Assembly: GCF_001436255.1 (NCBI RefSeq) | Contig: NZ_AZEI01000003.1 | Span: 1 to 64,000 of the forward strand | Length of the DNA: 64,000 bases | Direction of reading: 5' to 3' | Origin: Lentilactobacillus rapi DSM 19907 = JCM 15042 | Lineage (GTDB): Bacteria; Bacillota; Bacilli; Lactobacillales; Lactobacillaceae | In this document: positions 827-40,380 of the stretch, piece by piece | Layout of the letters: every line of letters begins with the position of its first letter | Position numbering within the stretch: position 1 is the stretch's first letter | Notes under the pieces: generated by a model | Told to the model about the DNA's origin: nothing | Databases searched by the model: none | Seen by the model: only the letters and a program-made list of their open reading frames with translations | Translations under genes and position numbers: made by a program

Positions 827-2017
827 TTATAACTTGAAATAATCTTTTAACGCATCAACCTTATCCGTATGCTCCCAAGGCAAGTCAATATCTGTCCTAC
901 CAAAGTGGCCATATGCGGCGGTTTGTTCATAAATTGGTCGTTTAAGATCCAACATTTTAATGATTCCTGCAGGTCGCAGGTCAAATAGTTTCCGAGTTGC
1001 TTCAATTAGCTTCTCTTCTGAAACCTTTCCGGTACCAAATGTGTTGATATCGATTGAAACTGGCGTAGCAACTCCAATGGCATAAGCCAACTGAATTTCA
1101 AGTTGGTCTGCTAAACCGGCTGCCACAATATTCTTGGCAATGTAACGAGCGGCATAACTGGCTGACCGATCAACCTTAGTCGCATCTTTACCGGAAAAGG
1201 CACCACCACCATGGTGAGCATAACCACCATAAGTGTCAACGATAATTTTCCGACCAGTCAAACCGGCATCCCCTTGAGGACCACCGATCACAAAGCGACC
1301 AGTTGGATTAACCAGATAACGGGTATTCCCGTCCAAGTACTTGTCTGGAATAACGGCCTTGATAATCTTTTCAATCACGTCAGAACGAACTTGATCCAAG
1401 CTGACGCCATCATCGTGCTGGGTACTCAAGACAACCGTATCCACTCGCATTGGTTTGTCGTTATCATCGTATTCCACAGTGACTTCGGCTTTTGCATCAG
1501 GCCCTAAGTAAGGAACCTCGCCAGACTTACGAAGATCAGCCTGCTTTCTCATTAACTTATGAGCTAATGAAATAGCCAATGGCATCAGTTCAGGGGTTTC
1601 GTTAATCGCATAACCAAACATCAATCCCTGATCACCAGCACCAATCTTATCAAGTGGATCCGTCTCACCATGACGTTCTTCTAAGGCATCATCAACCCCC
1701 TGAGCAATGTCAGGAGACTGTTCATCCAAGGCAACAATCACGGCACAGGAATCACCGTCAAAACCGTAACGACCATCACAATAACCGATTCGCTTGATGG
1801 TATTTCGAACAACTTTTTGGATATCAACATATGCTGTCGTTGATATTTCACCAAAAACTAAAACTAATCCAGTTGTCACGGATGTCTCACAGGCAACCCG
1901 GGCATCTGGATCTTGAGCTAACAAGGCATCAAGAATTGCATCACTAATTTGATCCGCAATCTTATCTGGATGACCTTCTGAAACTGATTCCGAAGTAAAT
2001 AAATGTTTTTCGCGCAT
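827..2017 (-). CDS. metK: S-adenosylmethionine synthetase
   Basis: Makes S-adenosylmethionine from methionine and ATP, releasing phosphate and pyrophosphate; a cytosolic homotetramer. The 396-residue product has the full family length and signatures: N-terminal [13 protein letters not shown] with the ATP-binding histidine, the [12 protein letters not shown] hexapeptide region near residue 120, and the glycine-rich P-loop-like [17 protein letters not shown] around residue 270. The ATG at 2015-2017 follows an AGGGGG ribosome site that forms part of an SMK riboswitch, so translation is expected to be shut off when SAM is abundant. It is a single-gene unit with its own promoter and terminator. 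Identification is essentially certain. Confidence 0.98.
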
Positions 2018-2021
2018 TTTA

Positions 2022-2095
2022 TTTTCCCCCTATATATTTTTAAGGTTACAAGGCTTCTTCACGCATTACGTGAATCCTATCGGGAACTCATAACT
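2022..2095 (-). promoter_or_regulatory. SMK (SAM-III) riboswitch of metK
   Basis: The leader reads, in RNA sense, GUUAU..GUUCCCGAUAGGA, then a hairpin UUCACG/CGUGAA, then GCCUUGUAACC, and finally AGGGGG eight bases before the start codon. These are the conserved blocks of the SMK box known from metK of Lactobacillales. GUUAU can pair with GUAAC to close the structure. In the family, SAM binding pairs the Shine-Dalgarno with an anti-SD segment and blocks ribosomes. Seen by motif and layout; not folded by program. Confidence 0.92.
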
Positions 2096-2100
2096 TTATC

Positions 2101-13210: not shown

Positions 13211-13282
13211 CTGCTCCGGCTGGGTTCGAACCAGCGACCTCTTGATTAACAGTCAATTATTCTACCACTGAACTACGGAGCA
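13211..13282 (-). tRNA. tRNA-Asn(GTT), copy 2
   Basis: A 72-base cloverleaf: acceptor TGCTCCG/CGGAGCA, D-arm GTTC..GAAT, anticodon loop CTGTTAA (GTT, Asn), T-arm GCTGGTTCGAACCCAGC. CCA is not encoded. The sequence is identical to the copy at 13396. It lies downstream of that copy on the same strand. Confidence 0.96.
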
Positions 13283-13395: not shown

Positions 13396-13467
13396 CTGCT
13401 CCGGCTGGGTTCGAACCAGCGACCTCTTGATTAACAGTCAATTATTCTACCACTGAACTACGGAGCA
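13396..13467 (-). tRNA. tRNA-Asn(GTT), copy 1
   Basis: Same 72-base sequence as the downstream copy with GTT anticodon. A plausible promoter (-35 TTGGCA at 13511-13516, 17-base spacer, -10 TATGTC at 13488-13493) precedes it on the minus strand. Confidence 0.96.
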
Positions 13468-13537: not shown

Positions 13538-13846
13538 TTATCCGATGTGATTTTCTTTCAGAATAATGGCAACTTCCTTTTGCATCTCAGGGGTTTTCTT
13601 CCATTCTTCAAAATGATCCATATTCTCATCTGGCATTGTAAAATTCTCATTTACGTAGTGTTCATATTTGGCAACGTGAGGAGAATGTGGAATATTAAGC
13701 TGAAGGATTCGGACCTGTTTGATAAATCCTCTATCGGCTGCCAATTCCGCCCGCCCATTTTGCACCATATTACTAATTTCGATATACTTTGAGCCGTCAT
13801 TGCGGGTAATTTCTTCAATTAACGTTAAAACTTCATTACTTTTCAA
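13538..13846 (-). CDS. Uncharacterised 102-residue protein
   Basis: No family recognised with confidence. The start is the TTG at 13844-13846, preceded by AGGAGGAG; the frame stays open further upstream but would read through a terminator hairpin. The protein is small, acidic and soluble, with a C-terminal helical region (MPDENMDHFEEWKKTPEMQK, residues ~73-92). No membrane or signal segment. It has its own close promoter (13871-13898). Neighbours are tRNA-Asn and tagH, which do not suggest a role. Confidence 0.65.
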   Translation of the reverse strand: MKSNEVLTLIEEITRNDGSKYIEISNMVQNGRAELAADRGFIKQVRILQLNIPHSPHVAKYEHYVNENFTMPDENMDHFEEWKKTPEMQKEVAIILKENHIG

Positions 13847-13870: not shown

Positions 13871-13898
13871 ATTATACATAAAAAAACCGGCAGTACAA
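13871..13898 (-). promoter_or_regulatory. Promoter of the 13846 gene, inside a terminator hairpin
   Basis: Minus-strand -35 TTGTAC (13893-13898), 16-base spacer, consensus -10 TATAAT (13871-13876). The -35 sits in the loop and right arm of the CCGGCAGT hairpin. The ribosome site AGGAGGAG lies at about 13852-13859. Confidence 0.6.
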
Positions 13899-13956
13899 AG
13901 ACTGCCGGCTTTTAAGAGAGAAAGAGAATTGATTAGAAGGTATTTATTTAGTACCC
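13881..13956 (-). ncRNA. Candidate CcpA-controlled small RNA
   Basis: A consensus promoter (TTGACA, 17 bases, TATATT) should start a transcript near 13956. About 76 bases later comes a strong intrinsic terminator: CCGGCAGT and ACTGCCGG around a six-base loop, then seven T. The space between is too small for a useful reading frame. It contains a small 5' hairpin (GGTA..TACC) and an unpaired pyrimidine-rich stretch TTCTCTTTCTCTCTT that resembles an anti-Shine-Dalgarno seed. A cre-like site covers the -35. Alternatives are a leader/attenuator of the 13846 gene, or simply the terminator of tagH with a chance promoter. Confidence 0.5.
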
Positions 13957-13962
13957 GCACAT

Positions 13963-13991
13963 AATATACCCACTTTTGGAAGCGCTGTCAA
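13963..13991 (-). promoter_or_regulatory. Promoter with overlapping cre-like site
   Basis: -35 TTGACA at 13986-13991, 17-base spacer, -10 TATATT at 13963-13968. TGGAAGCGCTGTCA at 13977-13990 matches the CcpA cre consensus TGWAANCGNTNWCA at all fixed positions except the third base. Overlap with the -35 predicts repression by CcpA when preferred sugars are present. Confidence 0.65.
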
Positions 13992-14062: not shown

Positions 14063-15133
14063 TTATTTAATACCAGGTAAGTTTAAAACGTGGGATGGAT
14101 GCAAAATCAAAGACGGGTCACTCAAAACGTGCCCAACAGAGTATCCAGAAATGTTAACCAAGCAGAAGAACACAATAACAAGGAGAACTCCCCACGTGAG
14201 TAATTGGTTCCAAATGGACATCTTCTCGCTAATCACTGATCCATAGAATAAATGGTGAACTTTTGACGGGATACTTTTATCCTGAGGGGCCTCTTCCTGC
14301 ATTTGATCGGTGATTTGCTTTTGATAATTTTCAATGCTGAAGTTCTTTTGCACGCTCTTTCGTTTAGATTCAAAGGCATGCTTTTCCTTTTTGCTAAGCT
14401 TCTTAAACCACTGGGTGAACTCGCGATATTTGTCAGTGACTTCTTTGGTTTCACCGACCATCTTCAACTCACCATAGTTAATCCAAGCAACTTTGTCACA
14501 TAACATTCGAATTTGTTTGAGAGAGTGACTGACAAAAATGATCGTCTTACCCTCTTCTTTGAATTCAGTAATCTTATCAACACATTTCTGATAGAACGTG
14601 TCGTCACCAACTGACAACGCTTCGTCAATGATTAAAATGTCTGGCTTAATATGAACAGCAATTGCGAACCCAAGTCTGGAACGCATTCCACTTGAATAAC
14701 TCTTAACAGGTTGATCGACGAAATCACCAATATCCGCAAATGAGATGATATCTGGCATCATTTCGTCAATTTGTTCGTTGGTCATTCCCTGCATTAAGGA
14801 CTTTAGCCGGATATTTTCCCGGCCGGTTAAATTATTTCGTAAACCGGCGCTAATCGCAACAATCGATGTTTCACCACGAACGTCTACATAACCAGTGGTT
14901 TGGGGAATAATACCAGAAATAATGTTTGACAAAGTCGACTTACCGGAACCATTAACGCCAATCAGGCCAAGGGTTTCGCCCGGTTGAATTGTCAAAGAAA
15001 TACCCATTAATGACCAGAAATGGGGAACGGCTTTTTTAGACACCGAAAAGAATGAGCGTAACTTTTCTGACTGAGTTTTAAATAAATCATATTCTTTGGT
15101 AACATTTTGCACTTTTACTTTATAATCTTCCAA
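14063..15133 (-). CDS. tagH: Teichoic acid export ABC transporter ATPase (TagH-like)
   Basis: A 356-residue protein with an ABC ATPase domain (residues ~1-240) of the polysaccharide/teichoic acid exporter class: Walker A GVNGSGKST (~62), signature SYSSGMRSRLGFA (~143), Walker B ILIIDEALSVGD (~165) and the switch histidine in FVSHSLKQ (~201). A charged coiled linker follows, then one membrane helix near residues 310-330 and a short outer tail, as in TagH. It powers export of lipid-linked wall teichoic acid with the permease TagG. TagG is not adjacent, so the pair is split here or the permease is elsewhere. ATG start with a modest upstream site. Confidence 0.88.
   Translation of the reverse strand: MEDYKVKVQNVTKEYDLFKTQSEKLRSFFSVSKKAVPHFWSLMGISLTIQPGETLGLIGVNGSGKSTLSNIISGIIPQTTGYVDVRGETSIVAISAGLRNNLTGRENIRLKSLMQGMTNEQIDEMMPDIISFADIGDFVDQPVKSYSSGMRSRLGFAIAVHIKPDILIIDEALSVGDDTFYQKCVDKITEFKEEGKTIIFVSHSLKQIRMLCDKVAWINYGELKMVGETKEVTDKYREFTQWFKKLSKKEKHAFESKRKSVQKNFSIENYQKQITDQMQEEAPQDKSIPSKVHHLFYGSVISEKMSIWNQLLTWGVLLVIVFFCLVNISGYSVGHVLSDPSLILHPSHVLNLPGIK

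Positions 15134-39015: not shown

Positions 39016-40380
<1,365 letters not shown>

Follow-up and report, generated by a model that had tools for sequence, protein, structure and literature searches.

RsaI of Staphylococcus aureus is a stand-alone RNA repressed by CcpA whose C-rich region pairs with the ribosome sites of glcU_2 and fn3K, as described in two reports (PMC9266662, PMC8216469). According to a further report, its two GGGG motifs pair with RsaE, and C-rich small RNAs of the RoxS/RsaE type in Firmicutes pair with ribosome sites through unpaired pyrimidine stretches (PMC9217828). RosA (S345) of Bacillus subtilis is presented as another stand-alone RNA under CcpA repression in PMC8216469. 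The LAB 6S RNA carries a cre over its -35 in about a third of species, and its level rose 3-fold when ccpA was mutated in L. lactis, according to PMC8414754.

Here we report on a 64,000-nucleotide stretch of Lentilactobacillus rapi DNA, analysed as a whole and called the window below. One of its loci probably encodes a stand-alone, CcpA-repressed small RNA of ~80 nt, most likely acting in trans by base pairing, that would represent an ancient RNA family of the Lactobacillaceae; from comparative sequence analysis we put the probability of this reading at roughly 0.75. The family is apparently new and unnamed. To our knowledge, few accounts of trans-acting RNA control exist for lactobacilli, which are major food and gut bacteria.

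The small RNA resembles RsaI in kind and is not a member of that family. The two have in common a plan of hairpin, unpaired pyrimidines and terminator (RF01775 alignment) together with CcpA repression, which is putative here, but they occur in different bacterial families, and the two GGGG motifs belong to RsaI and not to the RNA described here: the window RNA contains no GGGG, and the motif pair is absent from the aligned small RNAs. Membership of RsaI/RsaOG (RF01775) was rejected at 28.6 bits for the window against a gathering score of 50, and the gammaproteobacterial families Qrr and Hrs13 scored nearly as well as RsaOG at permissive settings. The RsaOG model matched none of 12 other members of the family, 11 of them searched at E up to 10 and the other being L084. 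At the gathering score, Rfam recognized only three tRNAs and a SAM-III (SMK box) riboswitch (2015-2098, minus strand, 78 bits) in the window, leaving the small RNA unmatched. With RosA the RNA shares its stand-alone organization and its CcpA control, the latter judged from the cre; RosA, in contrast, is G-rich, ~225 nt long and a sponge of RoxS and FsrA, whereas the RNA here is ~80 nt long and pyrimidine-rich. A cre overlapping the -35 is the likeness to 6S RNA (RF00013), which was rejected as an identity since the window gave no gathering-score match to it and 6S RNA is ~200 nt long against ~80 nt here. The unpaired pyrimidine stretch recalls RoxS/RsaE, but the motifs there are of the UCCCC type, and the core of the present RNA lacks a C run, and the RNA is probably cre-controlled and has no Rfam match at gathering score. 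We found no published account of the small RNA in a search whose scope ended short of supplementary tables (for example those on L. casei BL23 sRNAs, PMC8220740) and subscription papers. The words small RNA, sRNA, non-coding and intergenic are absent from a transcriptome study on glucose, ribose and xylose (PMC4972977) of L. oligofermentans, a species that has the RNA.

Promoter, features and fold of the predicted small RNA

The initial annotation had described a near-consensus promoter, TTGACA-17-TATATT, with a cre-like palindrome over the -35, and this arrangement is present on the minus strand. The -35 hexamer TTGACA (13986..13991, minus strand) and the -10 hexamer TATATT (13963..13968, minus strand), separated by a 17-nt spacer, match 11 of the 12 consensus bases. 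This was the top site of 36 promoter-like sites found between 10000 and 18000, where shuffled sequence gives 23.0 expected. The -35 is kept across 23 aligned same-genus loci, and the promoter scores 10 or 11 out of 12 in 114 of the 117 genuine loci among the listed matches to the 20-mer described below. The predicted CcpA site, TGGAAGCGCTGTCA (13977..13990, plus strand), lies on the -35; scored against TGWAANCGNTNWCA, which we take to be the cre consensus, it has one mismatch, and most relatives have a perfect site. Since the 64-kb window has 12 cre sites of this quality or better (no more than one mismatch) against 5.6 expected, the window cre is little proof on its own.

Transcription from this promoter would yield an RNA of ~78-82 nt on the minus strand (13876..13956), its start (~13956) and length being placed from the promoter and the terminator. 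The fold has a hairpin, GGGUACUAAAUAAAUACCU, at the 5' end (13938..13956, minus strand) and an unpaired 20-nt stretch, AATCAATTCTCTTTCTCTCT (13915..13934, minus strand), which we call the core and propose as the base-pairing region. Fold and terminator scan both give an intrinsic terminator hairpin of 13 pairs followed by a U run (13882..13913, minus strand). All three elements named at the outset are reproduced in this way on the minus strand: the short hairpin at the 5' end, the unpaired pyrimidines and the strong terminator. The fold has an energy of -21.9 kcal/mol (z -5.9), and none of 200 shuffles was equally stable. The terminator has the most pairs among the 5 terminator-like sites found, a class that is itself not enriched (5 versus 6.2 expected). 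A covariance model of the RNA matched the window copy (G000:C62:13880-13964) at 72.7 bits (E 1.0e-11), the same genome having contributed to the model.

Conservation of the structure was assessed by five measures on an alignment of 46 sequences, two of which did not exceed shuffles. Standard pairs make up 77.9 percent of pair cells versus 70.2 percent in shuffled alignments, and cells with changes on both sides number 76 versus 37; neither value was reached in any of 500 shuffles. The two measures not above shuffles were the number of pairs with both-sided change (10 versus 10.6) and the number of pair types (32 versus 32.4). All 10 pairs with both-sided changes sit in the two helix segments of the terminator, and the pairs of the 5' hairpin show one-sided variation only, with no both-sided change in this alignment. 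The pair-cell results suggest that the RNA structure is kept; the core is kept by sequence.

Three variants of the locus are worth recording. The 5' hairpin is enlarged in L049, L051, L054, L124, L180 and L184-L186 (Pediococcus where titled), and its loop has GCATCTCCT, possibly an extra anti-Shine-Dalgarno motif. In Ligilactobacillus saerimneri (L065 / L179) an unrelated stretch replaces the 5' hairpin, with core, cre and terminator retained. In L. parafarraginis (L017 / L062 / L183) the contig stops just past the core, the terminator is unrecognisable and the linked gene is on another contig; the locus may have been broken by an insertion or repeat.

Conservation of the locus and of its cre

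A 261-nt query covering the locus had matches in all 24 same-genus genomes searched (its own included) and in none of 17 others. Most alignments start at query position 68-70, which corresponds to the -35; in G020 the match is to the neighbouring gene only, and the closest relative of the window is 98 percent identical over the query. In the 23 same-genus loci with the RNA, the 20-nt core is identical and the -35 and cre are conserved, and the letters of the terminator vary but its stem is retained. Beyond the genus, the exact 20-mer AATCAATTCTCTTTCTCTCT was found in 177 of 397 family genomes, an independent sample, in which the reversed control was found in none (0/397). A collection of genome contigs held at least 119 stretches with the 20-mer, where by our own arithmetic ~0.5 chance matches are expected. 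Among 80 titles of the listed matches, 79 are Lactobacillaceae and one (L107) is an Opitutales record. The listed matches with a named genus cover 12 genera (Lentilactobacillus, Levilactobacillus, Lactiplantibacillus, Limosilactobacillus, Ligilactobacillus, Liquorilactobacillus, Loigolactobacillus, Furfurilactobacillus, Paucilactobacillus, Secundilactobacillus, Pediococcus and Periweissella), with L. plantarum, L. reuteri and L. brevis among the named species. L107 and L119 lack the promoter context and were taken as chance matches, leaving 117 genuine loci among those listed.

The covariance model found the RNA in 188 of the 397 family genomes and 16 of 40 genera, with one copy per listed genome; having been built from 46 sequences, mostly with exact cores, it gives a count that leans to exact cores. 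Even so, 11 of the 188 genomes lack the exact 20-mer, and altered cores with small changes occur as AACAATTCTC (L187), AATCAAATTCTC (L188) and AACCAATTCTC (L189, L190). The other 209 of the 397 gave no match under strict filters, which may lose weak ones. A search across the order, with strict filters, matched 16 of 295 genomes, all within the same family. The initial annotation would have been set aside had promoter and seed not been conserved between related species; promoter and core are clearly conserved, between species and between genera. Comparison shows joint conservation of the predicted promoter, the cre, the hairpin, the core and the terminator, with own promoter and terminator kept together as in a trans-acting small RNA, which supports a separate small-RNA gene. 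Conservation of the locus points to an RNA gene far beyond chance.

Comparison also argues for the CcpA control that had been proposed for the locus. Of the 119 listed 20-mer stretches, 103 carry a perfect cre and 13 a cre with one mismatch. Within the 117 genuine listed loci, 112 have a cre of at most one mismatch in either of two positions on the promoter, 91 at the -35 and 21 at the spacer/-10; any cre of this quality was present in only 31 of 5850 shuffled upstream regions. As for the remaining listed loci, three have two mismatches at the -10, L066 has a perfect site that is unplaced because the contig end cuts the promoter, and L036 has a cre at neither promoter place. Inspection by eye found a perfect cre before the altered RNA copy of G194 (locus L256), from a genus in which both core and place have changed, and a one-mismatch cre in L189; none was seen in L190. 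The cre moves within the promoter yet stays near perfect, which gives good grounds to assume selection on CcpA binding itself, and CcpA control appears to have outlived the relocation of its site on the promoter. The conserved, promoter-overlapping cre is accompanied by a ccpA gene, which scores 541 bits in this genome against a cut-off of 442 and lies above the cut-off in 19 of 22 genomes. By analogy with the promoter-overlapping cre sites that repress in B. subtilis, and with the LAB 6S RNA that carries such a site (both from PMC8414754), CcpA would repress rather than activate the small RNA.

Target searches and proposed action

The unpaired stretch had been proposed to pair with purine-rich ribosome sites, that of eno among them. 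The octamer does match eno exactly (40341-40348), and a TIGR01060 score of 715 bits identifies the gene as enolase, but eno does not stand as a target: TTTCTCTC occurs twice in the window versus 2.47 times expected by chance, and eno ranks 10th of 60 window genes by pairing. The broader proposal fared no better in the window, whose ribosome sites bind the core no more strongly than they bind shuffled cores (mean -9.4 kcal/mol versus -9.0, sd 0.6, for 50 shuffled cores), the best site equalling the shuffled average. In the own genome, near-complements of the core over 15-mers with at most 3 mismatches number 58, versus 74 for the reversed control. Several of the top ones are at ribosome sites, including that of a DUF1659 gene and, by eye, those of htrA and folD. 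The DUF1659 gene (L258:1501-1774, own genome C66) adjoins genes for a sigma factor-like protein and a DUF2922 protein, and its ribosome site is complementary to the core over 16 bp, with one G-U (-23.6 kcal/mol). As a target conserved in the genus this site was rejected: among the other species, 13 had a readable start, and their counterparts reach only -6.9 to -16.7; 2 further starts were misplaced and 2 were not found. With at most 2 mismatches, 14 relatives gave 103 near-complements, the RNA's own 14 copies included, versus 133 for the reversed pattern. Among 80 inspected of the 89 sites outside the RNA, 19 have a possible start close by, a figure that stands without a reversed-pattern control, and no gene recurs by eye. 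For the ccpA mRNA, pairing with the core averages ~-10.6 where the RNA is present (8 genomes) and ~-9.1 where it is absent (11 genomes), which gives no clear pattern.

It is nevertheless a reasonable inference that the core acts by base pairing, because the stretch is unpaired, nearly invariant and made of pyrimidines in an RNA with its own promoter and terminator. The RNA is presumably made, and presumably pairs with mRNAs. In the action that we propose, CcpA would bind the cre on the promoter and block RNA polymerase while a preferred sugar is present, and the small RNA would be made once the sugar is exhausted. The core, AAUCAAUUCUCUUUCUCUCU, would be held unpaired between the 5' hairpin and the terminator and would pair with several mRNAs where these are rich in purines, most obviously at ribosome sites, lowering the translation or stability of those mRNAs in trans. 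A single-copy RNA in about half of 397 genomes, with a near-constant core and a cre that is mobile but retained, has the look of an overlooked level of sugar control. Species with laboratory strains carry the RNA, making control and targets directly testable. We consider it doubtful, if attractive, that this RNA forms the central arm of Lactobacillaceae catabolite control at the post-transcriptional level, in which an anti-Shine-Dalgarno-like core, almost unaltered in sequence from the family ancestor onwards, would slow the translation of many mRNAs together on sugar depletion, possibly with the universally present 102-aa neighbour as an RNA-handling partner.

Partners other than mRNAs could also be envisaged for the core. 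It might titrate another, purine-rich small RNA, as other CcpA-repressed small RNAs act as sponges according to PMC8216469 and PMC9217828, with RosA and RsaI titrating RoxS/RsaE in the opposite sense. The lack of enrichment of core near-complements in mRNAs would suit such a sponge, but in 14 genomes the best match at up to 2 mismatches is the RNA's own locus, bar one tied site in G001, and no recurring partner emerged from the inspected sites; we regard this as improbable. Less probable still is a core that serves as a protein-binding site or acts on ribosomal or another stable RNA. Near-absolute invariance over 20 nt exceeds what many mRNA-pairing seeds need, and the target searches found no conserved mRNA site, which would both fit; against this, no protein or stable-RNA partner was identified, in a comparison that left rRNA out.

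The linked 102-aa gene and the surroundings of the locus

The remaining alternatives concern the neighbours of the RNA rather than its partners. Downstream lies a gene for a 102-aa protein (13538..13846, minus strand, TTG start), which begins 30 bases past a TATAAT that follows the terminator. The protein matches no Pfam or NCBIfam family, has 14 invariant residues over 69 aligned sequences and gives a confident predicted fold (pLDDT 91.6) with no clear match in a PDB library (best E 0.28). The gene occurs in 394 of the 397 family genomes, of which at least 206 gave no match to the RNA model, and is by sequence a core gene without assigned function. It is the sole neighbour common to 38 of 40 loci (the locus edge truncates the other two); the remaining neighbours vary.

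Such linkage could mean that the 102-aa gene has promoter, hairpin and terminator as its 5' region, an attenuation leader whose terminator sets read-through under CcpA. Among 182 loci with the gene, in which some genomes are counted twice, an exact core is on the same strand in 176 and on the opposite strand in two, and is missing from four. Most of the same-strand loci (168 of 176, redundant loci included) have the gene starting 65-208 nt past the core, as a leader would, and the core pairs slightly better with the ribosome site of this gene than with those of other genes (-13.2 against -10.5 for 588 others). This last point is a weak hint only, because shuffled cores give most of the excess (-2.84 for the real core versus -2.15, sd 0.40, for shuffled ones, with 1 of 40 as strong). 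The distance, however, grows to 252-1227 nt in the other 8 same-strand loci, including that of L. plantarum (L071), and in L087 and L102 gene and RNA are divergently oriented, so that the gene is not always downstream on the same strand. Within one genus the two are apart, on separate contigs in G250 and G265 and at a distance of ~27 kb in G194. The reverse also holds, the gene being far more widespread (394 versus 188 of 397 genomes), and 27 inspected loci poor in the small RNA have no core-like stretch close to it. Ten loci have a core without a match to the gene, namely the chance matches L107 and L119 and eight with the core near a locus or contig edge. Occurring apart in both directions, the RNA is separable and not simply the leader of that gene; nor did the minimum-energy structure reveal an anti-terminator alternative. 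We hold a leader to be unlikely. The upstream side offers the simplest explanation, that only a tagH terminator is present behind a chance promoter. A same-strand terminator does follow tagH in this genus, yet promoter, cre and core are retained where other genes lie upstream, and the conservation of promoter and core, with the exact 20-mer in 177 of 397 genomes, already refutes this reading, whose chance we put at practically nil.

The TATAAT past the terminator (13871..13876, minus strand) is a possible -10 of the 102-aa gene, for which a good -35 was not found at the window locus. A -10-like hexamer past the terminator is present in 114 of 125 relatives, a count without chance control and often with a weak -35, and in many loci the gene seems from its sequence to have its own promoter there. 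The upstream gene in the window encodes a TagH-like ATPase of teichoic acid export (14063..15133, minus strand; best model match just below the cut-off) and is outside the RNA system, the upstream-side neighbours differing between genera. G282 and G399 have neither the 102-aa gene nor the small RNA, though their genus usually has both, a pattern suggesting that the whole locus was lost together. In the window, the 102-aa gene is followed downstream by two tandem tRNA genes with equal model scores (13211-13282 and 13396-13467, minus strand).
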